A stretch of DNA of 64,000 bases, taken from NCBI GenBank assembly GCA_905182885.1, contig CAJJCW010000001.1, positions 372,001 to 436,000 of the forward strand, in the 5' to 3' direction. A model generated the notes under the pieces. It searched no databases, had not been told where the DNA came from, and saw only the letters and a program-made list of their open reading frames with translations. The position numbers and the translations under genes are program-made. Every line of letters starts with the position of its first letter. Position 1 is the stretch's first letter. This DNA is from SAR86 cluster bacterium SAR86B. GTDB lineage: Bacteria; Pseudomonadota; Gammaproteobacteria; Magnimaribacterales; D2472. Shown here one piece after another: positions 4,351 to 32,149 of this stretch.

Positions 4351-6977
<2,627 letters not shown>

Positions 6978-8054
6978 TTATCTTAATTGTTCCACGTGGA
7001 ACTTTTTAAATTCTCTAAAACTGGACTCTATTTTACTACTAAAATGATCATCTATACAGGAAAAAATTATTTGATTGTTAAGTGTGTTTAGAAGCTCTAA
7101 AAAGATATCAAATGTATTGGTATCTAGCTCTGATTTAATATCATCTATTATCAAGGTAGCGTTGATATTATGTTGTTTTCTGAGAACTTCGTGTTGTGCG
7201 CAACACCATAGTATTGAAAATAGTTTTTGCTCTCCTCGCGAAAGGATTTGTCTAGCATCAACATCGCCTATAAGAAACTTAATATCTGCTTTGTGCGGTC
7301 CTTCCGTTGTTGATCTTCTCTTAAGATCTTTAAATCTATTATTAGTCATTATACTAATAAGCTCAGATGACTTATCCCAGCCTGGAAAAAAATCAATAAT
7401 AATATCATTTAAGAAATTTACTGAGGAGGAGTGTTTGATAGTATTAATGAGGATGTTTAATTCCACTAAGGTTGCTTTAAAAAAATCTTCTCTTTTAAGG
7501 TCTAACTTTTCACCTTCTTCAGAAATTTTTATATCCCAAGGTTCTATATTTAAAATAGAGCCTGATTTAAGAAGGCTATTTCTTTGCTTTAAACATCGGT
7601 AGTAAGCAAACCAATTTTCTAGAAAACTTTTATCAGATACAAAAAGAGATCTATCTAAAATTTTTCTTCTAAAATCCGGGGAAGCGTCTGCGAAGGAAAA
7701 CGTGTTGTTATGTATTGCAGTTGACGGGAACTCTCTGATCAGTCTGCTGGAGGTTGTCTTGGTATTGTTTACTAGTATTGAGATAGATTTATTTTTTTCC
7801 TTTGTTACAGAAAGGATGTACCCCTTGTCAACGTCGTAGCTTTTAAGGGAAAAAGAATCTTCGCCTTGGGCAATTAAAGCATGAAGGTTTGAGCTTTTAA
7901 AAGATTTGCCACTTGAGCAAAGATGAATAGCCTCAAGTAAAGAGGTTTTACCGGAGCCATTTTTACCATAAAAGAAATTAATTCCAGGAGATAGCTCTAT
8001 TTTTGTTGATTTAAAACACCTAAAGTTATTAAGTGTTAATTCTTTAAAGGCCAT
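6978..8054 (-). CDS. recF: RecF, recombination mediator ATPase
   Basis: RecF is an SMC-like ATPase that with RecO and RecR loads RecA at gaps and stalled forks. The Walker A motif FFYGKNGSGKTSLLEA lies near residue 28, the signature region is SRGEQKLFSILWC near 267, and Walker B is TLIIDDIKSELD near 296. Length 358 matches the family (357 in E. coli). It starts 2 bases after the dnaN stop. The last codons (F-H-V-E-Q) double as a parS site at 6988-7003, so this coding end is under dual constraint. Confidence 0.95.
   Translation of the reverse strand: MAFKELTLNNFRCFKSTKIELSPGINFFYGKNGSGKTSLLEAIHLCSSGKSFKSSNLHALIAQGEDSFSLKSYDVDKGYILSVTKEKNKSISILVNNTKTTSSRLIREFPSTAIHNNTFSFADASPDFRRKILDRSLFVSDKSFLENWFAYYRCLKQRNSLLKSGSILNIEPWDIKISEEGEKLDLKREDFFKATLVELNILINTIKHSSSVNFLNDIIIDFFPGWDKSSELISIMTNNRFKDLKRRSTTEGPHKADIKFLIGDVDARQILSRGEQKLFSILWCCAQHEVLRKQHNINATLIIDDIKSELDTNTFDIFLELLNTLNNQIIFSCIDDHFSSKIESSFREFKKFHVEQLR
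6988..7003. promoter_or_regulatory. parS: parS centromere-like site (ParB binding)
   Basis: The 16 bases TGTTCCACGTGGAACT match the known bacterial parS palindrome (TGTTTCACGTGAAACA and the TGTTCCACGTGGAAC form known from Pseudomonas); only the last base breaks symmetry. The site lies in the 3' end of recF and encodes its FHVEQ codons. parA and parB are in this window about 10 kb away, and the distance to the dnaA/rpmH junction is about 3.5 kb, as expected for an origin-proximal partition site. No second copy was found by eye. Confidence 0.88.
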
Positions 8055-8056
8055 TT

Positions 8057-9160
8057 TTAGATAAGCAGAGGCATTACAACATACTTGAAGCTATCAGAGC
8101 CTGGGTTGGTTATTAAACAACTTTTATCTGAGCCGAAGAAATGAATCTCAACATTATCATTGTCAATTGATGAAATTATCTCTTGAAGGTAGTTAACATT
8201 AAAAGCTATATCCATAGCCTCGCCTGCGTAAACACAGTCAACACTTTCTTCTGCCTGTTCTTTTTCAGGATTATTGGCTGATATATTAATTTTATTGTCT
8301 GAGGTTATTATTCGTATTCCTCTATACTTTTCACTTGAGAGAACACTTACTCGACTTAAACTTTCAGATAATGTTTTTTTGTTAATGGTCAATGTTGAGC
8401 TATCTCCTGATGGGATAACTTGCTCATAATCTGGGAACTTACCTTCAATTAGCTTGCTTGAAAAAGTCGTACCTGAAACATCAACAGTTATAGAGTTTGC
8501 GCCTAACTGAAGAAGAATATTTTCTTTTTCATCTCCCACAAGCTTCCCTATCTCATTAATAGACTTTCTTGGCACTATGCCTGTAATTTGCTCTGAAACG
8601 CCCTCATTAAGGCCTAATGAAGCAAGTGCTAGACGATGAGCGTCAGTAGCAACACTAGTAATCTGCGTATCTTCTATTGAAAGGTATAAGCCGTTTAAGT
8701 AGTGCCTCCAATCTTGATTCCCCATAGCAAAAGCAGTTTTACTGATTAGGGATTTAAGGTTTTGAGGGGTAATGTTTATTGAGTTTGATTTTTCTTCTTT
8801 TTCAAAAACAGGAAAGTCTTCACTTGGTAGTGTTGCTAAATTATATTTACCGGAGTCTGTTTCAATTCTTAAGTTGTCGCCATCTAAAAAGAAGTGAACC
8901 TCTGACATGTCTGAAAAAAGTCTACACAACTCACTAAGCTTTTTTGCTGGAGCGGTTACCCTGCCCCCGCTTTTAAAGTTTGTTATTGTTGATATTGTTG
9001 ATATCTCTGACTCTAAATCTGTGGCTGTAAGTCTTAAAGTAGACTCGTCCACTTCAAATAAAACATTTGCTAAGATTGGGAGAGTTTGTCTTTTTTCAAC
9101 AACACCAAGGGTTGCTGTAAGAGATTTTACAATCTCCTCTTTTGATATATAAAAATCCAT
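8057..9160 (-). CDS. dnaN: DNA polymerase III beta subunit (sliding clamp)
   Basis: DnaN is the ring-shaped processivity clamp of the replicative polymerase. The 367-residue length and the opening MDFYISKEEIVKSLTATLGVVEKRQ fit the family, as do LRLTATDLESEIS near residue 55 and the C-terminal end NPGSDSFKYVVMPLLI, close to the usual YVVMPMRL. Three clamp domains are implied by length. It lies 2 bases after dnaA and 2 bases before recF, so it is an operon gene. Confidence 0.97.
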   Translation of the reverse strand: MDFYISKEEIVKSLTATLGVVEKRQTLPILANVLFEVDESTLRLTATDLESEISTISTITNFKSGGRVTAPAKKLSELCRLFSDMSEVHFFLDGDNLRIETDSGKYNLATLPSEDFPVFEKEEKSNSINITPQNLKSLISKTAFAMGNQDWRHYLNGLYLSIEDTQITSVATDAHRLALASLGLNEGVSEQITGIVPRKSINEIGKLVGDEKENILLQLGANSITVDVSGTTFSSKLIEGKFPDYEQVIPSGDSSTLTINKKTLSESLSRVSVLSSEKYRGIRIITSDNKINISANNPEKEQAEESVDCVYAGEAMDIAFNVNYLQEIISSIDNDNVEIHFFGSDKSCLITNPGSDSFKYVVMPLLI

Positions 9161-9162
9161 AA

Positions 9163-10458
9163 TTAATTTGTTAGTGCTCTATTGAGGTTTCTGTAGTCTT
9201 CTTCTTGTGATGGGTTCTCTTTTCTAAGTTCTTTTATTTTTTTACAAGCATGTAAAACTGTTGTGTGATCCCTTCCATTAAAAGCTTCTCCTATTTCTGG
9301 CAGGCTGTGGTTTGTTAGCTCTTTAGTGAGCGCCATGGCTAACTGCCTTGGTCTGGTGATTGACCTGCTTCTTCTTTTAGACAGTAGGTCTGAAAGCTTA
9401 ATATTATAATACTCTGCAACTGTTTTTTGTATGTTCTCAATACTAACCATTTTAGCTGATATTACAAACAGGTCTTTAAGGGCCTCTTTAACTAACGCTA
9501 GATCGATTGGTTGATTGGTGAAGCGGGAATTAGCAACAACTCTTTTTAGGGCGCCCTCAAGCTCCCTGATGTTAGATCTTATTCTTTGTGCGATATAAAT
9601 AGCACAGTCGTTTGGAAGCTCGACACCCATGGATGAGGCTTTCTTTAATAAAACGGCGGCTCTTGTTTCAAGTTCTGGGGGATCTATTACTACCGGCAAG
9701 CCCCATCCAAGCCTAGATTTTAGTCTTTCCTCCAGCCCGTCTATTTCTTTAGGATATTTATCACATGTCAATATCATCTGATTGTTTCTGTCTAGCAGGG
9801 CATTGAATGTATGGAAGAACTCCTCTTGGGACTGCTCCTTTCCAGCAAAAAACTGTATATCATCAATCAATAAAGCATCTGCATTCCTATAAAAGGATTT
9901 AAACTCATTCATTGCTCCCAATTGAAGAGCCTTCACCATGTCTGAAACAAACTTTTCTGAGTGAACATATACAATCCTCTTATCTGGATCATTTTTGCGG
10001 ATTTCATTGCCCACAGCATGCATTAAATGGGTTTTACCCAGTCCGACTCCACCATATATGAACAAAGGGTTGTAATCTCCCTTGGGGTTTGAGGCTACTT
10101 GTTTTGAGGCTGCTAGAGCAAGATGATTAGACTTTCCCTCAACAAAAGTATCAAAAACATAAGAATCAACTAACTTAGATTGGCCTGATTCACTACCTTT
10201 TTTATATTTATCAACAAATGTTTCCTTTGTATGTGTTTTAAAAACTAAACTTATGTCCTTTTTTGATTGGTTTTTAACCATTTCCGTGATTTCGGTTGAA
10301 AGGTTTGCTTCTACATAATTTAAAATAAAGTCATTTGGAGCCACAAGCTCTAGTATATTATCGCTTAAATTAGCTTTTAATGGTCTGATCCAGGTGTTAA
10401 AATCGTCCTGGGTAAGTTTATTTTCGAGCTTTTCTGAGCATTTATTCCAAAATTCCAA
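9163..10458 (-). CDS. dnaA: DnaA, chromosomal replication initiator
   Basis: DnaA is an AAA+ ATPase that melts oriC. Readable motifs: Walker [17 protein letters not shown] near residue 135, Walker [21 protein letters not shown], sensor II region, and the DnaA-box-binding helix-turn-helix [20 protein letters not shown] near the C-terminus. I set the start at a TTG (10458-10456) because GAGGAG lies about six bases upstream of it and the resulting N-terminus ([14 protein letters not shown]) aligns with family starts; an ATG at 10482 is in frame but has that Shine-Dalgarno inside its own codons. First gene of the leftward dnaA-dnaN-recF-gyrB operon. Confidence 0.97.
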
Positions 10459-10640
10459 TCTGTTCTCCTCAATTATGAACATCTAGTCTATTAAAAAACT
10501 AACAAGATATCTACAGGATAACACCATGAATTTTCTGTGGATAACTTGTTGATATAAATTATTCATTTGTTTTTGGTGAATTATGTGAAATGTTTAAATT
10601 ATTGGGCTATAATGCCCCACTATTTTTTGGACAGCATATT
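10459..10640. other. dnaA-rpmH intergenic region with DnaA boxes; possible origin or dnaA autoregulatory region
   Basis: This AT-rich gap separates divergent dnaA and rpmH. It holds one perfect DnaA box in reverse orientation, TGTGGATAA at 10536-10544 (TTATCCACA on the minus strand), and a weaker one two bases further on, TGTTGATAT at 10547-10555 (two mismatches). In many bacteria oriC lies here. Only two boxes in about 180 bases, part of it taken by the rpmH promoter, is little for a full origin, so dnaA autoregulation is an equally good reading. Confidence 0.5.
10585..10613 (+). promoter_or_regulatory. Probable sigma-70 promoter of rpmH-rnpA
   Basis: A perfect -10 TATAAT at 10608-10613 lies 17 bases after GTGAAA (10585-10590; 4 of 6 matches to TTGACA). 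The -10 is itself bracketed by GGGC and GCCC, a short dyad around the melting region. Transcription would start near 10620, about 20 bases before the rpmH start codon. Confidence 0.6.
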
Positions 10641-11080: not shown

Positions 11081-12622
11081 ATGAATATCAGAAAAATTTA
11101 CGTTGGTTTAATTGCTTTTCTATTGATGGCAATGTTTTATGCCTGGACCTCTGAAACCAGAGCCCTATCGACATCAACCCAATTAGCAGAAGCAAAATCA
11201 GAAAATGCATTACCAGCTGTTTCAAACAACGGGGATTACGTAACTATAGAGAATGATCTATTAAAAGTAAGGGTTGCTGTTAGTACAGGTGCAATAGTCG
11301 AGACAAGGTTAAAAGAATACAAGGTTGAGAACATCGAAGGCTCCCTAGGGTCCAGGGTTTTTGGATCTGATGAGTCTAGTTTATTCAAATATTATTTTAA
11401 AAGCGGCTTCACAGGACAAGATGCGAACTATGAGTTAGATTCCTACTCTGATGATTTTATTGTTCTTATTGATAAGACTAGGGGTTTAAGCAAAAAAATA
11501 TCATTTCTTCCTGAGACTTATGAGCTTTCAATTGCGGACTCATCTTTAAATGGTTTAAGTGGCAAGGCTTATGCCTCTCTATACCGAACAGGTGGAAGGT
11601 CTTTAGACTTAAAAACGAACATGGCAGATGGTGGTTTTATGAACAGCAGTTCATACGAGGGCGTGGCGATTAGCACTCAAAATGACGCCTATGAAACAAC
11701 AAGGCTGAGGTCTTTGGATGAGCCAATATCTGAACTTTCTCGGTCTGGTTGGATAGCCTTTATTGAAAAATACTTTTTTGCTGCCTTGTTAGGTTCTGAG
11801 GGTGTTATTTATAACTATATTGCTCAGCCGGCAAATGCTGGAATCTATAGCATGGGTTATACGGTTGAAAAAGCTGAAACACAAAACCTTGTTTATGATC
11901 ATAAGCACAGGTTGTATATTGGGCCAAAAATTAGAAAAGACCTTTCTGAAAGGGCAGAAAATTTAGAGCTTTCAATTGACATGGGTTGGTTTTGGTTTAT
12001 ATCTCAGCCGATGGTTTTATTTTTAGACTTAATTAATGGTGTTGTTGGTAGTTGGGGGCTTTCAATTATCATCTTTACAATTCTTTTAAAGCTGCTTTTG
12101 TGGCCTGTAACAGCAAAAGGTTATGCTTCGATGGCTGGTATGCGAAAGGTGGCTCCAGAAATGAAGGAGCTTCAAGAAAGATATAAAAATGACAGACAAA
12201 AGCTTGGCACGGAAACAATGGCTTTATATAAAAAACATAATGCAAACCCTGTGGGTGGCTGCCTGCCAATGCTCGCTCAGATGCCATTTTTTATAGGCTT
12301 CTTTTTTGCCTTAAGGGAAATGGTGGAGCTAAGGCACGCATCTCTTGGTTTTTGGCTTACCGATCTTTCAGTGCCGGACCCGCTTTTTATACTGCCTATA
12401 CTTTTTGGAATGGTTATGGTTCTTACGCAAAGACTTAACCCGCAGCCTCCCATGCAAGACCCAACTCAAGCACAGGTAATAAAATATATGCCGGTGATGT
12501 TTTCTGCTTTCTTTTTTGTTATGCCTTCTGCTCTTGCTCTTTACTCTGTAATCAACAGTGGGGTCTCCCTAATTCAACAAAGGTTGATTTATAAAAAACA
12601 TGGTGCTGTTGTTGATGAGTAG
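11081..12622 (+). CDS. yidC: Membrane protein insertase YidC/Oxa1
   Basis: YidC inserts and folds inner-membrane proteins with or without SecYEG. The 513-residue protein has an N-terminal membrane anchor (residues 5-22), a large periplasmic domain (about 50-300) and the conserved C-terminal Oxa1 core with hydrophobic segments near 315-345, 395-415, 430-450 and 470-495; GGCLPMLAQMPFFIGFFFAL is typical. It is somewhat shorter than E. coli YidC (548). The gene lies between rnpA and mnmE (12 bases). Confidence 0.95.
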   Translation: MNIRKIYVGLIAFLLMAMFYAWTSETRALSTSTQLAEAKSENALPAVSNNGDYVTIENDLLKVRVAVSTGAIVETRLKEYKVENIEGSLGSRVFGSDESSLFKYYFKSGFTGQDANYELDSYSDDFIVLIDKTRGLSKKISFLPETYELSIADSSLNGLSGKAYASLYRTGGRSLDLKTNMADGGFMNSSSYEGVAISTQNDAYETTRLRSLDEPISELSRSGWIAFIEKYFFAALLGSEGVIYNYIAQPANAGIYSMGYTVEKAETQNLVYDHKHRLYIGPKIRKDLSERAENLELSIDMGWFWFISQPMVLFLDLINGVVGSWGLSIIIFTILLKLLLWPVTAKGYASMAGMRKVAPEMKELQERYKNDRQKLGTETMALYKKHNANPVGGCLPMLAQMPFFIGFFFALREMVELRHASLGFWLTDLSVPDPLFILPILFGMVMVLTQRLNPQPPMQDPTQAQVIKYMPVMFSAFFFVMPSALALYSVINSGVSLIQQRLIYKKHGAVVDE

Positions 12623-12634
12623 TGGTTTTGTTTT

Positions 12635-13945
12635 ATGTCTATAGTTTTTGCATTAGCTACTCCAGCTGCAAAATCAGCTATTTGTATTTTTAGGGTTTCG
12701 GGAGAGGGTTGCTTAAAATCCTTGAACGAGCTTATTGAAAAACCCTTAGACGGCCATAGGGTTTTTGGGGTTAGGCCTATTTATTTTAAAAAAAGACTTT
12801 TAGATACTGTCGGGGTGATCTCTTTTAAGGGTCCTGAGAGTTACACCGGGGAGGATTCTTTTGAGGTATATGCTCATGGCGGTCTTGGTGTTATGTCTTT
12901 ATTTGTTGATCTTTTTAAAAGCGCTGGCTTTGATGAGGCGCCCCCAGGAGAATTTACTAAAAGGGCGTTCTTAAACGGTAAATTAAGCCTTAACGAGGCC
13001 GAAGCTGTTGTTGATGTTATAGACAGCTCAGCAGAAGAGGATGTTTTTTTGTCCTCACAATCTTTGTCTGGGGAATTTTCAAAAGCTGTTGTTGGTTTTG
13101 CCGAAGATATAGACTTTATTCGTGTGCGCGTTGAAGGGGAGATAGACTTCTCAGACGAGGGAGAGGATTTTTTAGACGGCTCTCTTTTTAACGATCTTGA
13201 TAATTTGATTAGCAGGTTTGATCTTTTTGTTGGGGGTTGTCTCAATAAAAAAAACAGGCTTGTTAAAAATAAAGTTCTTTTTGTTGGGCCTGTTAACTCT
13301 GGTAAATCATCTGTTTTTAACAGGCTTTTAGGTTTTGAAAGGGCCTTGGTTTCGAACATTCCTGGCACAACAAGAGACTTAATTGAATCTGAGGTTTTTT
13401 ATAACGATCTTAGTTTCTCAATATTTGATTCTGCTGGTCTTAGAGAAACCGATGATTTAATAGAGGCGAAGGGGATGGCTTTGGCGGTTGATGAAATTGG
13501 AAGTGTTGATGTTGTTGTTGGTGTTTTTGAAAAAAACGACCCTGTGGTTATGGCTCAATTTAGTGAGATGGCAAAAAATAAAATATACATACGGGTTTTG
13601 AATAAGATTGATCTCGGTGGCTCTGGTGTAACTGGTTTTGATTGTTGTCTTTCGGCAAAAACCGGAGAAGGTTTTGATTTTTTTAAGGCTGCTCTTATAG
13701 ATGCTTTTGCTGCTGAGGACTCGCACAGCTCAACCTACCTTGTTCGTGAAAGACACATTAGCCTTTTTGGAGAGTCTGTTCTAAGTTTAAAAGGGGCCCT
13801 TGGTAGATTAAAAAAAGCTGAGGCTATAGAGCTAGCCGCTGAAGATTTAAAAATAGCTAGGTCTTGCCTAGATGAAATTGTTGGTTTTAAGAGTTCGGAT
13901 GATTTGTTGGGAGATATTTTTAGTACTTTTTGTATTGGAAAGTAG
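12635..13945 (+). CDS. mnmE: tRNA uridine-5-carboxymethylaminomethyl modification GTPase MnmE
   Basis: MnmE (TrmE) works with MnmG to modify U34 in tRNA wobble positions. The N-terminal folate-binding part (ALATPAAKSAICIFRVSG; SYTGEDSFEV; APPGEFTKRAFLNGKLSL), the G domain (GPVNSGKSSVFN near 216, FDSAGLRETDD, NKID) and the invariant C-terminal FCIGK are all present. It is slightly short (436 against about 454). The coding strand is strongly G- and T-rich (for example 13441-13500: 22 G, 5 C), unlike mnmG just downstream on the same strand. Confidence 0.96.
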   Translation: MSIVFALATPAAKSAICIFRVSGEGCLKSLNELIEKPLDGHRVFGVRPIYFKKRLLDTVGVISFKGPESYTGEDSFEVYAHGGLGVMSLFVDLFKSAGFDEAPPGEFTKRAFLNGKLSLNEAEAVVDVIDSSAEEDVFLSSQSLSGEFSKAVVGFAEDIDFIRVRVEGEIDFSDEGEDFLDGSLFNDLDNLISRFDLFVGGCLNKKNRLVKNKVLFVGPVNSGKSSVFNRLLGFERALVSNIPGTTRDLIESEVFYNDLSFSIFDSAGLRETDDLIEAKGMALAVDEIGSVDVVVGVFEKNDPVVMAQFSEMAKNKIYIRVLNKIDLGGSGVTGFDCCLSAKTGEGFDFFKAALIDAFAAEDSHSSTYLVRERHISLFGESVLSLKGALGRLKKAEAIELAAEDLKIARSCLDEIVGFKSSDDLLGDIFSTFCIGK

Positions 13946-14164
13946 TTAACCTGTTAATAATCTGTGGTTGTTTTTAGGCTCTTTTTTTTATCAACAGCTT
14001 TTAATCAGCTTAGTTAATGGTGTATGGGTATGTTTAAACATGGTTTATACATCTCTAAGGCCCTTTTGTTTTGTGGCCTTTCTTTAGTTGTTAACAGAAA
14101 AGGGCTTCTCTAATAGAAATAACAATAAGTATATAATATAGATATTATTGGTTTTAATAAGTAT
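13946..14164. other. mnmE-mnmG intergenic region: candidate replication origin or skew boundary
   Basis: 219 bases without a gene. Two DnaA-box-like sequences differ from TTATNCACA only at position 6: TGTTAATAA at 13952-13960 (reverse) and TTATCAACA at 13988-13996 (forward); a weaker one, TTGTTAACA, is at 14088-14096. There is a 12-bp palindrome ATGTTTAAACAT at 14030-14041, a stem AAGGCC/GGCCTT at 14057-14080, and a very AT-rich last 60 bases that could unwind. E. coli oriC lies next to mnmG. Base-composition strand bias flips abruptly across this gap. Origin function is inference. Confidence 0.45.
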
Positions 14165-16012
14165 ATGAATAAATATGATGTGGTGGTTGTTGGTGGAGGG
14201 CATGCCGGTGTTGAGGCTGCGCACGCCGTCTTTCGATCGGGCTTAAAGTGTGCCCTTGTAACTTTTGATGCAGAAAAAATTGGGCAGATGTCCTGTAACC
14301 CAGCTATAGGCGGCCTTGGTAAATCTCATATTGTTCGTGAGATAGACGCAATGGGCGGAATCATGCCAATTGCCACAGACATGTCAGGAATACAGTATAG
14401 AACCCTTAACACAAGAAAAGGCTTCGCCGTCCAAGCCCTAAGAGTTCAGTGTGACAGAGAGCTATACAAAAAAGGAATACAGAAGCTATTAAACCAAACA
14501 GACATCGATATTTTTGAGGACGAGGTTGTTGATATTGTTGTAGAGAAAGACTCTGTAAAAGGCGTTATTACCAAAACAGGCGAGGTTCTGGCAGAGAAAA
14601 CCATCTTAACAACAGGAACCTTTTTAAACGGAATTATGTACACAGGCCAAGACTCAGAAAAAGGGGGAAGAGTGGGAGACAGCTCGTCCATACCTCTGTC
14701 GAAAAAACTTTATAGCCTAAAACTCCCAATGGGCAGATTAAAAACAGGAACACCAGCAAGAATAAAACTTACCAGCCTCAACACATCAGCAATGGAGGAA
14801 CAGCCGGGCGACACACCAACACCATGGATGTCACTAACAAATAAAGTTTCTGAACATCAAAAACAACTCTCCTGTTTTATAACCAGAACCAGCAAAGCAA
14901 CACATAAAATAATTGAAAAAAACATTCACCTCTCTGCAATGTACTCAGGAAACATTGTTGGCATTGGGCCAAGGTATTGCCCATCAATAGAAGATAAAAT
15001 ATTTAAATTTAAAGACAAAGACAGCCACCAAATATTTATAGAACCAGAGGGTATCAACAAGGACCTTGTATATCCAAACGGCATTTCAACAAGCTTACCA
15101 AAAGAGGTTCAAGAACAGTTTATTTTATCTATTAACGGAATGGAAAACTCAATAATTGAAGAGTATGGATATGCTGTTGAGTATGACTTTATTGACCCGA
15201 GATCTCTCCATCAAACCCTAGAGACTCATTTTTTTAAAGACTTTTACCTAGCAGGTCAAATAAACGGGACAACCGGTTACGAGGAAGCCGCAGCTCAAGG
15301 GCTAATGGCCGGAGTTAATGCGGCGCTTTCAATAAAAAAAGAAGGTGAGTTTGTTTTGGATAGGAGCGAGGCCTATATAGGCGTAATGATAGACGATCTC
15401 ACAACCCACGGCATAACAGAGCCCTACAGAATGTTTACAAGCAGGGCCGAACACAGACTCCTTTTATCGCAAAGCAACGCCGAGCAAAGACTTCTTAGAA
15501 AAGCGCATAAAATAAAGTTAGTTGATGATGAGAGAATGGCAGCCTTCTGCCAAGACGAAGAGGAATATAAAAAGTTTGTAACAAACATCCTTGAAAAAAC
15601 AAAAGTCACAGAGTTCACCAACAAGAAAAAAGAACTAATCAAACTAAGTGAGAAAAAAAGCATAGCCACTATTTTAACCAGACCAGATATTGACGAAAAT
15701 ACAATATTTGAAACAACCAAGGAAAATAAAAAACACTTAGCAAGGGCTGCTGTTGAAATTAAATACAAGGGCTATATAGAAAAACAACTACGAGAAATAC
15801 ATAAAAACAAAAAACAAAACCATAAAAAAATCCCAACCAACTTTTCCTATGCAAACTTAAGCGGCCTATCAAACGAAGTTGTAGAAAAACTCTTAAAGGC
15901 AAAGCCAGAGACAATAGGCTCAGCCTCCAAGATAGAAGGAGTAACCCCAGCAGCCATAAATCTAATTCTAGTAATGCTAAAGAAAGAAGAGATACAAAAG
16001 GCTCATGCATAA
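14165..16012 (+). CDS. mnmG: tRNA uridine-5-carboxymethylaminomethyl modification enzyme MnmG (GidA)
   Basis: MnmG is the FAD-dependent partner of MnmE in cmnm5U34 synthesis. The FAD-binding VVVGGGHAGVEAA is at residues 6-18, followed by the family blocks CNPAIGGLGKSHIVREIDA and RKGFAVQALRVQCDRELY; FLAGQINGTTGYEEAAAQG-like sequence (YLAGQINGTTGYEEA) lies near 360. Length 615 is close to the usual 629. The coding strand is A- and C-rich (15781-15840: 2 G, 13 C). It overlaps rsmG by 8 bases. Confidence 0.97.
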   Translation: MNKYDVVVVGGGHAGVEAAHAVFRSGLKCALVTFDAEKIGQMSCNPAIGGLGKSHIVREIDAMGGIMPIATDMSGIQYRTLNTRKGFAVQALRVQCDRELYKKGIQKLLNQTDIDIFEDEVVDIVVEKDSVKGVITKTGEVLAEKTILTTGTFLNGIMYTGQDSEKGGRVGDSSSIPLSKKLYSLKLPMGRLKTGTPARIKLTSLNTSAMEEQPGDTPTPWMSLTNKVSEHQKQLSCFITRTSKATHKIIEKNIHLSAMYSGNIVGIGPRYCPSIEDKIFKFKDKDSHQIFIEPEGINKDLVYPNGISTSLPKEVQEQFILSINGMENSIIEEYGYAVEYDFIDPRSLHQTLETHFFKDFYLAGQINGTTGYEEAAAQGLMAGVNAALSIKKEGEFVLDRSEAYIGVMIDDLTTHGITEPYRMFTSRAEHRLLLSQSNAEQRLLRKAHKIKLVDDERMAAFCQDEEEYKKFVTNILEKTKVTEFTNKKKELIKLSEKKSIATILTRPDIDENTIFETTKENKKHLARAAVEIKYKGYIEKQLREIHKNKKQNHKKIPTNFSYANLSGLSNEVVEKLLKAKPETIGSASKIEGVTPAAINLILVMLKKEEIQKAHA

Positions 16013-16628
16013 AAAACTAGAAGATCGTATAAAAGAAAGCCTACCAAACCAATCGGACGATGAGCTAAAAAAAATAAAAGTTTTTGTACTAAGGGCTATA
16101 GAATTTAACAAGTCCCACAATATATTTGTTAGAGAGATCGCTGAAGAGGTTTTTGAAAAAGACATATTGGACTGTATGCCTCTCATAGAAAAAATTAATC
16201 ATGACGAAAAAATATTAGACATGGGTTCCGGAGGAGGGTTTCCAGGTCTATTAATTGCCATCTTGCGACCCGGATGTGAAATACACCTATTAGAAAAAAG
16301 CCAAAAAAAATGCTACTTCTTAAACAAAATAATCCATGAGCTAGAATTAGCAAATGTAAAAACCTTAAACACCCATATTAGACCAAACAATAAATTAGGG
16401 ACCTATAATCTAATAACATCAAGAGCTTTTTCTTCTACAGAGAACACCTTAAAACTTTCAAATAAAAACCTTGAAACAGGAGGAAGATACATTCTTTTAA
16501 AGGGTAGAGAAGAGAAAATAATTGAAGAAACTCAATCTCTAGACACAAACAAATATAAGTGTGAAATAATCAAAATAGAGAACACAAAACACGAAAGACA
16601 TTTGGTTGAGATAAAGATTAATGAATAA
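16005..16628 (+). CDS. rsmG: 16S rRNA (guanine527-N7)-methyltransferase RsmG (GidB)
   Basis: RsmG methylates G527 of 16S rRNA using SAM. The 207-residue protein has the SAM motif ILDMGSGGGFPGLLIAILRP near residue 70 and a downstream LITSRAFSS that matches the conserved SRA segment. Start (ATG, 8 bases inside the end of mnmG) and end (8 bases inside parA) overlap, giving a coupled mnmG-rsmG-parA-parB unit. It shares the A/C-rich coding strand of mnmG. Confidence 0.95.
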   Translation: MHKKLEDRIKESLPNQSDDELKKIKVFVLRAIEFNKSHNIFVREIAEEVFEKDILDCMPLIEKINHDEKILDMGSGGGFPGLLIAILRPGCEIHLLEKSQKKCYFLNKIIHELELANVKTLNTHIRPNNKLGTYNLITSRAFSSTENTLKLSNKNLETGGRYILLKGREEKIIEETQSLDTNKYKCEIIKIENTKHERHLVEIKINE

Positions 16629-17382
16629 AATACTAGCCATAGCCAATCAAAAAGGCGGAGTTGGCAAGACAACAACCGCAGTCAACTTGGCAGCAAGTCT
16701 TGCTGGTACAAAAAGAAAGGTCTTACTCATTGACCTAGATCCCCAGGGAAATGCCTCTACTGCAGCTGGAATGAACAAAGGAGAAACAAACACCCTTGCA
16801 AATATTTTTTTTGACCAAACACCCATAAATGAATGTATTTATAAATCACCCGATGGTTATGATGTTATTCCTGGAGGGCAGGATTTAATTGCCCTAGAGG
16901 TTAGTATCAGATCAGAAGGAAAACAAACCTTTTTAACTAAAGAATTAAAAGCCCTTGAAGGCGATTATGACTACACAATAATTGACACACCCCCAACACT
17001 GAACCAATTAACAATTGAGGCTTTATTTGCTGCCTCTGGCACACTAATTCCACTTCAATGTGAATATTACTCCCTTGAAGGAGTAACAGGCCTAATGGAC
17101 ACAATCCAGACACTTTCTGATAAAAACTTATCTTCAAATAGGGTGCTTGGAATAGTAAGAACAATGGTTGATATGAGAAATAACCTTGCAAGAGAAGTCT
17201 CCAACGAACTTGAGACACATTTTTCTCATTTAGTATTCAACACGCTTATACCAAGGAATATAAAACTTGCTGAAGCTCCCAGTCACGGCGTATCAGGGGT
17301 AAAATATATGCCAAATTCATATGGGGCAAAAGCCTACCTCGCTTTAGCGGGGGAGTTAATAAGGAAGGTTGAATATGTCTGA
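16621..17382 (+). CDS. parA: Chromosome partitioning ATPase ParA (Soj)
   Basis: This Walker-type ATPase binds the nucleoid non-specifically and, with ParB bound at parS, moves sister origins apart. The deviant Walker A NQKGGVGKTTTAVNLAASL is at residues 8-26, with LLIDLDPQGNAST and the YTIIDTPPTL Walker B. The 253 residues with no N-terminal helix-turn-helix place it with the small chromosomal Soj type. Overlaps rsmG by 8 and parB by 8 bases. A cognate parS lies at 6988-7003. Confidence 0.95.
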   Translation: MNKILAIANQKGGVGKTTTAVNLAASLAGTKRKVLLIDLDPQGNASTAAGMNKGETNTLANIFFDQTPINECIYKSPDGYDVIPGGQDLIALEVSIRSEGKQTFLTKELKALEGDYDYTIIDTPPTLNQLTIEALFAASGTLIPLQCEYYSLEGVTGLMDTIQTLSDKNLSSNRVLGIVRTMVDMRNNLAREVSNELETHFSHLVFNTLIPRNIKLAEAPSHGVSGVKYMPNSYGAKAYLALAGELIRKVEYV

Positions 17383-18214
17383 AGACAATAAAATTCTGAA
17401 CCGAGGGTTAGACGCGCTTTTAGGTGGAGGCGGCTCTAACCAAAGAACAGTTAAAGATATAAATGTAAGCAATATCAATGCGGGAAGATTCCAGCCTAGG
17501 GCAAATTTTGACGAGACTAAACTAGAAGAGTTAACCAACTCAATTCAAAAGCACGGTGTTCTTTCTCCAATTCTTGTAAGGGAGCTTGGGTTAAATAAGT
17601 ATGAGGTTATAGCAGGCGAGAGAAGATTGCGGGCTTCTAAAAAAGCAGGGCTAGAGACAATACCTTGTTTAGTAGATCAGAAAAAAGATCAAGATGCTCT
17701 CGAGTCTGCCTTGATAGAAAACCTACAAAGAGAAGACCTTAATGCTGTTGAAGAGGCCAGGGGTTACGACAGATTAAAAAGAGAGTTTGGGCTTACGCAA
17801 GATGATGTTGCAAAGTCGACCGGCAAAGCAAGAAGTACGATTGCTAACTCAATAAGATTACTATCACTTCCCGCAACTGTTTTAGACCTTCTTTCATCAG
17901 GACAAATTGAAAAAGGTCACGCAAAGCTATTAGCTTCGCTTGATCCGTCCGAGGCAGAAGCAGCCGCTCAAAACATTATTAAAAACAAACTTACAGTCAA
18001 AGATGTAAGCAACCTATCCGGTAAAAAAACTAATAAAAAAACATCACCAACCAAAACTAAAGATAAAGATCTTCTAAACATAGAAGAAGAAATGTCAGAA
18101 GGTTTTGGACATAAAATAGAAATCGAAGCTAGAAATAAAAAATCAGGCAAAGTAGCCATTTCTTACAACACCTCAGACGAGTTAGAAAATATTATTTCCA
18201 AACTAATAAATTAA
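17375..18214 (+). CDS. parB: Chromosome partitioning protein ParB (Spo0J)
   Basis: ParB is the parS-binding CTPase clamp. Present in order: a basic N-terminus ending NRGLDALLGGG, the ParB/Srx NTPase domain with YEVIAGERRLRASKKAG near residue 70, SALIENLQREDLNAVEEA near 105, a helix-turn-helix (LTQDDVAKSTGKARSTIANSI) near 145, and a C-terminal dimerisation part after a K/T-rich linker. I chose ATG 17375 because AAGGAAGG at 17361-17368 lies about six bases upstream. Predicted 279 residues. Confidence 0.95.
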   Translation: MSEDNKILNRGLDALLGGGGSNQRTVKDINVSNINAGRFQPRANFDETKLEELTNSIQKHGVLSPILVRELGLNKYEVIAGERRLRASKKAGLETIPCLVDQKKDQDALESALIENLQREDLNAVEEARGYDRLKREFGLTQDDVAKSTGKARSTIANSIRLLSLPATVLDLLSSGQIEKGHAKLLASLDPSEAEAAAQNIIKNKLTVKDVSNLSGKKTNKKTSPTKTKDKDLLNIEEEMSEGFGHKIEIEARNKKSGKVAISYNTSDELENIISKLIN

Positions 18215-30054: not shown

Positions 30055-31989
30055 ATGTCATTCAAAGAACTCGGTTTATCTGAACCAATATTAAAATCTC
30101 TAGAAGAGCTTGATCATTCAAAGCCTTCTGAAATTCAACAACAAGCAATCCCCGTAATTCTTGCAGGCAAGAACCTTATGGCTGCTGCCCAAACAGGTAC
30201 TGGTAAAACAGGAAGCTTTGTTCTCCCAATGTTAGAAATGTTGATCGAAAAAGCAAAGCCTTATGATAAAAATGTTCATGCCCTAGTTTTGACTCCAACT
30301 CGAGAACTAGCAGCTCAGGTCAGAGAGAATGTTCATAAGTATGGAAAGTTCACTAATATCAAATCAACAGTTGTTTATGGGGGGGCCAAAATTTTCCCTC
30401 AAAAATCTAAGCTTAAAAAAGGCGTAGATATTCTGGTTGCAACGCCAGGAAGATTACTGGATTTGGTTAACCAGAAAGCAGTCAAGCTAGACCGAGTTCA
30501 AATGCTCGTGCTAGATGAGGCAGATCACATGCTAGACATGGGCTTCATCCATGATATTAAAAAGATTATCGCGATGACTCCGCCTACAAGACAAAATTTA
30601 CTCTTTTCAGCAACCTTCTCCCCAGAAATTAAAAAACTAGCTCAATCGCTGGGTGATGAATTAGTAGAAATCAATGCTCAATCACCAAATACTACTGTCA
30701 GTAAAATAAAGCAGATAGTTTATAACGTTGATAAAAATAAAAAAACTGACTTGCTGGCTCACATGATCCAAGAAGAGCAATGGGAGCAAGCGTTAGTTTT
30801 CTCTAGAACCAAGCACGGCTGTGAAAAAATTGCTGATTATTTAAATGCAGCAGGAATTGAAACAGAAACTATTCATGGTGATAAAACTCAAGGAGCAAGA
30901 ACTAAAGCTCTAAGAGAGTTCAAAGGAAAATTTGTACGAGTGCTTGTTGCTACAGATGTTGCTGCTAGAGGAATTGATATCAGCAATCTTCCTTTTGTTG
31001 TTAATTTTGATATGCCTACTTATCCAAATGATTATATCCACAGAATTGGTAGAACAGGTCGAGCAGGGCAAGAAGGAACCGCTATATCCCTTATGAGCTC
31101 AGATGAGCATAAGTTTTTAAGAGGGATTGAAGGGCTATTAAAAATTAAAATTGATCAAACTAGCCATGAAGCTTTTAAGCCAAACGACAAGCCTTCGGGT
31201 GGAGGTCGTGGCAATCCTAGGTCAAGAGGCCCAAGAGGAGGAAAGCCAAGTTTCTCAAGGAATAGACGAAGCTCTGATGATAAATCTGGAAACAGTTTTT
31301 CTAAACCAGGTGGAAGTAGCTCAAGACCAAGCAGTGGTGGTGGAAGACCAAATACTAGCGGAGCCGGAAGACCAAGTTACGGCGGCAAGCCAAATACTAG
31401 CGGAGCTGGAAGACCTGAGCGAAGCGGATCTGGAAGACCAAATACTAGCGGAGCTGGAAGACCAAGTTACGGCGGCAAGCCAAATACTAGCGGAGCTGGA
31501 AGACCTGAGCGAAGCGGATCTGGAAGACCAAATACTAGCGGAGCTGGAAGACCAAGTTACGGCGGCAAGCCAAATACTAGCGGAGCTGGAAGACCTGAGC
31601 GAAGCGGATCTGGAAGACCAAATACTAGCGGAGCTGGAAGACCTGAGCGAAGCGGATCTGGAAGACCAAATACTAGCGGAGCTGGAAGACCAAGTTACGG
31701 CGGCAAGCCAAATACTAGCGGAGCTGGAAGACCTGAGCGAAGCGGATCTGGAAGACCAAATACTAGCGGAGCTGGAAGACCAAGTTACGGCGGCAAACCG
31801 AACACTAGCGGAGCTGGAAGACCTGAGCGAAGCGGATCTGGAAGACCAAATACTAGCGGAGCTGGAAGACCAAGTTACGGCGGCAAGCCAAATACTAGCG
31901 GAGCTGGAAGACCAAGCAGCGGTGGCGAAAGACGTGGTAGTAATACAACAAACAAATCATATAATAAAAAAATAGGACCAAAGCGCTGA
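30055..31989 (+). CDS. DEAD-box ATP-dependent RNA helicase (RhlE-like) with repetitive RG/SG-rich tail
   Basis: The core (1-375) has the Q motif (SKPSEIQQQAIPVIL), motif I AAQTGTGKTGSF, Ia PTRELAAQV, II VLDEADHMLDMGF, III SATF, V ATDVAARGIDI and VI HRIGRTGRAG, so it is an ATP-dependent RNA unwinding enzyme like RhlE. From about residue 380 the protein is a basic, Gly/Arg/Ser-rich disordered tail; residues 432-620 are 12 tandem units beginning PNTSGAGRP. Such tails bind RNA and can drive condensate formation (family knowledge). No close operon partner. Confidence 0.93.
   Translation: MSFKELGLSEPILKSLEELDHSKPSEIQQQAIPVILAGKNLMAAAQTGTGKTGSFVLPMLEMLIEKAKPYDKNVHALVLTPTRELAAQVRENVHKYGKFTNIKSTVVYGGAKIFPQKSKLKKGVDILVATPGRLLDLVNQKAVKLDRVQMLVLDEADHMLDMGFIHDIKKIIAMTPPTRQNLLFSATFSPEIKKLAQSLGDELVEINAQSPNTTVSKIKQIVYNVDKNKKTDLLAHMIQEEQWEQALVFSRTKHGCEKIADYLNAAGIETETIHGDKTQGARTKALREFKGKFVRVLVATDVAARGIDISNLPFVVNFDMPTYPNDYIHRIGRTGRAGQEGTAISLMSSDEHKFLRGIEGLLKIKIDQTSHEAFKPNDKPSGGGRGNPRSRGPRGGKPSFSRNRRSSDDKSGNSFSKPGGSSSRPSSGGGRPNTSGAGRPSYGGKPNTSGAGRPERSGSGRPNTSGAGRPSYGGKPNTSGAGRPERSGSGRPNTSGAGRPSYGGKPNTSGAGRPERSGSGRPNTSGAGRPERSGSGRPNTSGAGRPSYGGKPNTSGAGRPERSGSGRPNTSGAGRPSYGGKPNTSGAGRPERSGSGRPNTSGAGRPSYGGKPNTSGAGRPSSGGERRGSNTTNKSYNKKIGPKR
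31348..31914 (+). repeat. In-frame tandem repeat in the helicase C-terminus (42- and 48-bp units)
   Basis: Two unit types alternate: A, 42 bp, PNTSGAGRPSYGGK; and B, 48 bp, PNTSGAGRPERSGSGR. The order is AB AB AB B AB AB A, then a partial PNTSGAGRP. Units are nearly identical at the nucleotide level (exceptions: GCC for GCT in the first, and CCGAACACT near 31798), indicating recent expansion or homogenisation. Copy number could be misassembled. Confidence 0.95.
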
Positions 31990-32149
31990 TTTAAAAAACA
32001 TTTTCCTTATATAAATTCTATACAAACTTTTTTTAGATGCCTTGGATGAACTAAATAGTCTTCTGTCCACAGACATAATCTAAGGTTTATACTTAATATC
32101 ACTCTGACTTAACTAATGTCATTAATAATTCAAAATTAAGGAATATAGA

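Follow-up and report, generated by a model that had tools for sequence, protein, structure and literature searches.

In SAR86 cluster bacterium SAR86B, the synonymous-site composition of the + strand switches at the intergenic gap between mnmE and mnmG (13946..14164), from T/G-rich in yidC–mnmE (11081..13945) to A/C-rich in mnmG–rsmG–parA–parB (14165..18214, with parB weaker). The stretch analysed, referred to here as the window, comprises 64,000 nucleotides of GenBank assembly GCA_905182885.1 (contig CAJJCW010000001.1, positions 372,001 to 436,000; C1:372001-436000 in our numbering) and belongs to a 1.05-Mb genome in three contigs, 84.67% complete (G000); ‘order’, ‘family’ and ‘genus’ denote kinship groups around this genome. 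The reading we prefer, to which we assign a probability of about 0.72, is that the step marks a chromosomal replication origin (oriC) in the gap, surrounded by a mutational strand asymmetry that is specific to the lineage and inverted in polarity. On each side of the gap the outward 5'→3' strand, which would be the leading strand if the gap is the origin, is A/C-rich, and the inward strand is T/G-rich; the bias peaks at the predicted oriC, decays over about 4–5 kb and is opposite in sign to that of Escherichia coli. The + strand of yidC–mnmE thus points toward the predicted oriC and that of mnmG–parB away from it.

Per-gene skews at fourfold degenerate sites locate the sharp change at 13.95–14.16 kb, mnmE having a T-versus-A (TA) skew of +0.58 and a G-versus-C (GC) skew of −0.02, and mnmG values of −0.32 and −0.51. 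Amino acid composition was controlled by setting the G+T of every fourfold codon family against the usage of the genome itself, and the resulting G+T excess on the + strand falls from +0.23 in the first kb left of the gap to −0.18 in the first kb to its right. Over all codon positions the raw skews of mnmG–parB are about zero for GC (+0.016) and −0.258 for TA. A sequence-only reading of this DNA had already put a flip in base bias at the mnmE–mnmG gap from six hand counts of G and C; all six are exact, the fourfold skews confirm the flip, and the distinct strand-specific mutational history that third positions were expected to reveal in the block is borne out at fourfold and twofold sites alike.

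The step, defined as left minus right G+T excess over 3 kb, was ranked within three genomes (G000, G006 and G018), each sampled as 20 stretches of 20 kb plus its oriC stretch. It reaches 0.370 at 14.3 kb in the window (z 7.2; 3380 positions in the 20 stretches and the window), and the top step also falls in the oriC stretch of G018 (0.397, z 7.6, 2877 positions) and of G006 (0.293, z 6.2, 2881 positions). Every other step in the three genomes is at most 0.151 in size, runners-up being ranked after exclusion of positions less than 3 kb from one already listed, and the first runner-up always lies in the oriC stretch; in G000 it is the step of 0.139 at 17.3 kb, in the same zone.

The pattern is centred on the mnmE–mnmG gap, antisymmetric and graded with distance. 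Averaged over 29 family loci with the same amino acid control, the G+T excess of the mnmG-sense strand is about +0.1 at −3.5 kb, forms an antisymmetric cusp of +0.21 at −1.5 kb against −0.19 at +1.5 kb, holds at −0.12 to −0.19 across +0.5 to +3 kb and has faded by about 5–7 kb. Exponential fits to the bin values of these loci give decay lengths of 4.3 kb (standard error 0.7) on the left and 5.3 kb (standard error 2.0) on the right, and the gradient is seen both within and across genes (18 loci). The earlier description of the block as opposite to both neighbours therefore stands at its left edge, a true sign change, and falls at its right edge, where the 18–20 kb region shows decay toward the baseline: the G+T-excess bins contain no second flip near 18–20 kb, and the G-richness near 21 kb that had been taken for a flip back is ordinary atp coding composition, the fourfold GC skew of the atp genes being mostly still negative. 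Nor do the data support the further origin that had been suggested near 18.2 kb, there being no second flip and no DnaA-box-like site in the parB–atpI gap even with two mismatches allowed.

The sign of the step is identical in all 40 measurable genomes of the order. Both skews are higher in mnmE than in mnmG in 28 of the 28 family genomes holding both genes (step +0.166 to +0.339), and a weaker form occurs in the other families of the order, with the TA skew higher in 12/12, the GC skew in 7/12 and steps of +0.030 to +0.192. These sets were chosen non-randomly, eight of 37 family genomes and 12 of 24 genomes from the other families having been left out (no match, cut or not chosen), and a family stretch without mnmE (L126) and a class stretch without mnmG (G130) were excluded from the counts. 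Among 14 genomes of the genus most pairs have a fourfold p-distance of 0.53–0.63, with lower values inside three groups of close species, so that fourfold sites are near saturation across the genus and the pattern must have been kept up independently. This upkeep argues strongly against an inherited relic, such as the past inversion and re-inversion, or the acquisition from the other strand, by which the block had also been explained, or a foreign acquisition. Although the composition of the block does differ from that of its left neighbour, as such an event would have it, mnmE–mnmG adjacency and the sign of the step are constant across 40 loci of the order and recent substitutions still tend to different equilibria on the two sides, so that we regard a rearranged or acquired block as scarcely credible.

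These equilibria were taken from singleton substitutions in six close species, which give a G+T value of 0.67 on the left and 0.44 on the right. With twofold sites included, A>G plus C>T changes number 50/200 on the left versus 103/604 on the right (p 0.017), and G>A plus T>C changes 60/413 versus 69/328 (p 0.025), a modestly significant contrast between the two sides. Among codons ending in a purine (NNR), the G fraction is 0.45 in mnmE versus 0.23 in mnmG, with a genome baseline of 0.23–0.24; among codons ending in a pyrimidine (NNY), the T fraction is 0.79 versus 0.51, with a baseline of 0.78–0.80. Compared with these baselines, the twofold sites indicate that A→G change on the inward strand dominates.

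The gap itself, 72% AT and at the centre of the skew switch, is most likely an E. coli-type oriC, as predicted from its sequence. It contains DnaA-box-like sites at 13952..13960 on the − strand (TTATTAACA, two mismatches to TTATCCACA) and at 13988..13996 on the + strand (TTATCAACA, one mismatch), no exact TTATCCACA, and an R1-like box at 14088..14096 on the + strand (TTGTTAACA), which stands 13 nt ahead of CTAATA, the spacing of E. coli oriC. An AT-rich element resembling a DNA unwinding element (DUE) and beginning CTAATAGAAATAACAATAAGTATATAATATAGATATTATTGG... follows at 14110..14160 (+), adjoins mnmG and is the best-conserved stretch among 27 aligned gaps. In three genomes with fourfold divergence of 0.35–0.58, the AT-rich element at 14110-14167, running into the start of mnmG, is invariant, and its conservation perhaps exceeds the needs of a bare unwinding element. 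Across the order mnmE lies next to mnmG, 186–329 bp away, in all 40 loci holding both, and these gaps hold 53 matches to TTAT[CT][ACT]ACA (200 shuffles: mean 3.2, maximum 9), present in 32 of the 40 gaps and missing in its exact form from eight. A box followed after 13 nt by [CT]TAATA occurs in 18/40 gaps in its strict form (shuffle mean 0.03) and in 24/40 in a loose form; among spacings of 8–19 nt the strict form is otherwise found only once each at 12 and 14 nt, and in a scan of both strands of the window the site at 14088 is the single match. GATC is absent from the window's gap and occurs four times across the 40 gaps of the order, which thus do not carry many Dam sites; an abundance of GATC in oriC is a trait of the Dam/SeqA subgroup.

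The position of the putative terminus agrees with this assignment. A dif-like site has one match each in 10 of 11 genomes, all relatives, and none was found in the incomplete genome of the window; in the six single-contig genomes it lies at 49.7–50.3% of the circle in four and at 38–40% in two. Together, an oriC-like gap and a dif site about opposite suggest that the block would form the opening 4 kb of a replichore and not an inversion or the site of a second origin, and genes pointing away from the gap outnumber those pointing toward it by 239 to 124 in the sample from contig C1. Were forks instead to run inward from sites beyond about ±4 kb, the gap would be a local terminus with ordinary E. 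coli polarity, which would match that of mismatch repair-defective E. coli as given in the excerpt of PMC8510543 available to us, and a perfect DnaA box does exist in the dnaA–rpmH gap. This arrangement would require two origins flanking the gap throughout the lineage, leaves the oriC-like anatomy within the gap unaccounted for, meets no DnaA-box-like site in the parB–atpI gap and conflicts with the location of dif in relatives, which also argues against a terminus at the gap; we consider it quite improbable. The perfect box, TTATCCACA at 10536-10544, has no other exact copy in the window and perhaps serves dnaA autoregulation.

If forks do leave the mnmE–mnmG gap, the premise that the strand to the right of an origin must be G/T-rich fails in this lineage. 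In each of the three sampled genomes the fourfold sites of leading genes hold more C than those of lagging genes (0/2000 permutations in G000 and G018; 10/2000 in G006, or 102/2000 without the oriC zone), and in two they hold more A (0/2000 in G000 and G006), the T/A difference in G018 being non-significant; the comparison in G000 covers 15 stretches of contig C1 and the window. The sampled genomes thus do not show the classical excess of G over C and T over A on leading relative to lagging genes, which E. coli, treated by the same method, shows with the usual sign (G+T excess +0.036 on the leading right side, −0.066 on the lagging left). Global strand asymmetry was rejected as the sole cause of the step, the leading–lagging difference in fourfold G+T in G000 being about 0.04 against a step of 0.37, and the weakness of this asymmetry beside so large a step makes the oriC zone exceptional.

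Gene-specific codon selection or transcription-linked mutation, setting yidC–mnmE apart from mnmG–parB irrespective of position, could also be proposed, given that yidC and mnmE are oriented toward the gap and mnmG–parB away from it, and that in most stretches sampled from G000 the bias tied to the coding strand (C>G, T>A at fourfold sites) is larger than that tied to replication. It seems improbable to us, since the bins of recF and dnaN, which lie on the other strand, show an excess of the mnmE sign, since the gradient runs within as well as across genes, and since no such step is seen in E. coli or in 19 gammaproteobacteria outside the order, among which G094, G184 and G099 have the same mnmE–mnmG–rsmG–parA–parB order. 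The mnmG steps of these 19 (a MutS match is present in 11 and missing in eight) range from −0.070 to +0.083, none being of the family's size, with the qualification that many of them may have their origin elsewhere than at mnmG. Exposure of the non-template strand in R-loops was likewise rejected, as it would be expected to raise T on the mnmG–parB sense strand, where the opposite is observed.

The inverted asymmetry around the predicted oriC occurs in a lineage in which several repair genes were not found. MutS was matched in none of 21 genomes of the order, compared with 128 of 140 in the class sample; MutL gave no match above the cut-off in the 21, with short weak matches in two, and EndoV none in the 21, while Ung was found in 18 and PolA in 20. 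Where mismatch repair is lacking, errors linked to replication can mould the composition of synonymous sites. MutS loss alone was rejected as a sufficient cause, since G094 and G184, which share the gene order and lack a MutS match, have steps of −0.047 and +0.029, and EndoV loss was rejected as a specific one.

Replication initiating at the gap, which we infer from its sequence features, might leave such a trace in two ways. The mechanism that we consider most likely, and favour only weakly and tentatively, is exposure of the leading-strand template at initiation: the helicase would have opened several kb by the time leading-strand synthesis gets fully under way, the template near oriC would stay single-stranded for longer than elsewhere, and A→G and some C→T changes would accumulate on it, persisting for want of any detectable MutS, MutL or EndoV in the lineage. 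The strand gaining G and T would then be the leading-strand template, provided that forks leave the gap. Alternatively, the first few kb of each leading strand might be made by a lower-fidelity polymerase (e.g. Pol I) before hand-off to Pol III, so that T→C errors in the newly made leading strand would go uncorrected without MutSL and would fade as Pol III takes over. The graded decay over about 4–5 kb on both sides, the missing MutS and MutL and the presence of PolA in nearly all genomes of the order would fit, and ColE1 plasmids do start their leading strands with Pol I. We hold this hand-off to be doubtful, as a widespread PolA leaves the distinctness of the lineage unexplained (no search aimed at an unusual polymerase was made) and the step is missing from genomes outside the order that have no MutS match. 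Either exposure or a lower-fidelity starter polymerase would give a mirror-image graded bias, and the data separate neither from the other. In general form, we give even odds to the proposition that initiation in this lineage leaves a reversed, mirror-image mutational footprint of about 5 kb on each side, through for example prolonged template exposure or a dedicated initiating polymerase, and that it is readable because mismatch repair is absent.

Several observations weigh against an inverted asymmetry centred on oriC or against its proposed origin in template exposure. The step is smaller outside the family than within it, that of one genome of the order outside the family (G038, +0.030) lies within the range of the 19 outsiders, and in one family genome (G023) the TA skew of mnmE is only +0.04. 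The dnaA bin (−4.5 kb) is off the gradient, and the family-average sign change falls 150–300 bp inside mnmG and not at the DUE. Intergenic DNA shows no consistent leading/lagging skew in the three sampled genomes, and differences in expression between leading and lagging genes could contribute to the weak genome-wide inverted asymmetry. Among the six close species the far-left genes also have an equilibrium toward G+T (about 0.52–0.55), and no single type of change is significant (A→G p 0.12, T→C 0.086, C→T 0.082, G→A 0.40). The flanking dnaA, dnaN, recF and atp genes have NNY T of 0.61–0.69 (flanking genes taken together, 0.61–0.72), under the genome baseline, so that the local background near oriC differs somewhat from that baseline; measured against these genes, C→T on the left counts too and the picture is less purely one of A→G. 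Cytosine deamination would normally be expected to exceed adenine deamination in single strands, so that A→G dominance requires Ung to remove most uracil. Finally, the failure of MutS loss to suffice, noted above, counts here as well, and EndoV is missing also from 17 of the 19 genomes outside the order.

Around the step, the window carries gyrB–recF–dnaN–dnaA on the minus strand, then rpmH/rnpA, yidC, mnmE, mnmG, rsmG, parA, parB and the atp genes on the plus strand. The outer left flank, gyrB to dnaA (5052..10482, −), includes the recF and dnaN bins, whose excess is weaker and of the mnmE sign despite the opposite gene orientation. The names rpmH, rnpA, gyrB and recF were assigned from sequence, position and length, with no family search behind them, and most ‘atpD’ labels in the gene searches of related genomes are secondary matches to atpA that were unused or removed as duplicates. 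Further along, 31001-32000 forms a local GC peak (0.486) in which A exceeds T (AT skew 0.37). It falls in the portion of a DEAD-box helicase open reading frame (30055-31989) that encodes the C terminus, and a 274-aa open reading frame (31151-31975) is nested there in another frame.

Skew-based origin finding assumes G/T-rich leading strands. In the portion of PMC2099444 on which we draw, the leading strand is defined by G>C at fourfold sites, and that definition, as it is worded there, would mislabel the leading strand in this lineage. How bacteria pass from helicase loading to coupled synthesis is difficult to observe directly, and a footprint limited to the first few kb from oriC would be a natural in vivo record of how leading strands start in a probably uncultured lineage. 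No published description of such a reversed oriC-zone skew was found among open-licence PMC titles and the beginnings of abstracts; the excerpt of PMC6042203 available to us deals with genome-wide skews and does not describe the oriC zone.

Among known systems, the closest anatomical parallel to the gap is the oriC of E. coli K-12 (NC_000913.3 3925744-3925975), which likewise lies in the gap upstream of mnmG (gidA) and in which, oriented toward mnmG as in the window, a box is separated by 13 nt from an AT-rich element with CTAATA. The two differ in that the far side of the gap is occupied by mnmE in this lineage and by mioC in E. coli, in that the boxes of the order's gaps are mostly TTATYAACA-like variants, unlike those of E. 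coli, and in that E. coli oriC is rich in GATC whereas the gaps of the order are almost devoid of it. In the mitochondrial heavy strand, an A→G gradient along the replicon is ascribed to time spent single-stranded; that gradient is confined to one strand, whereas here two mirror-image gradients surround a predicted bacterial oriC. With mismatch repair-defective E. coli, as far as the excerpt of PMC8510543 goes, the lineage shares the dominance of transitions and the lack of MutSL, but A and C are assigned to opposite templates if forks leave the gap here. With classical replicative asymmetry, in which leading strands are G/T-rich, it shares the sign switch at the origin, but here the polarity is reversed and the asymmetry is concentrated in the 5 kb or so next to the predicted oriC.

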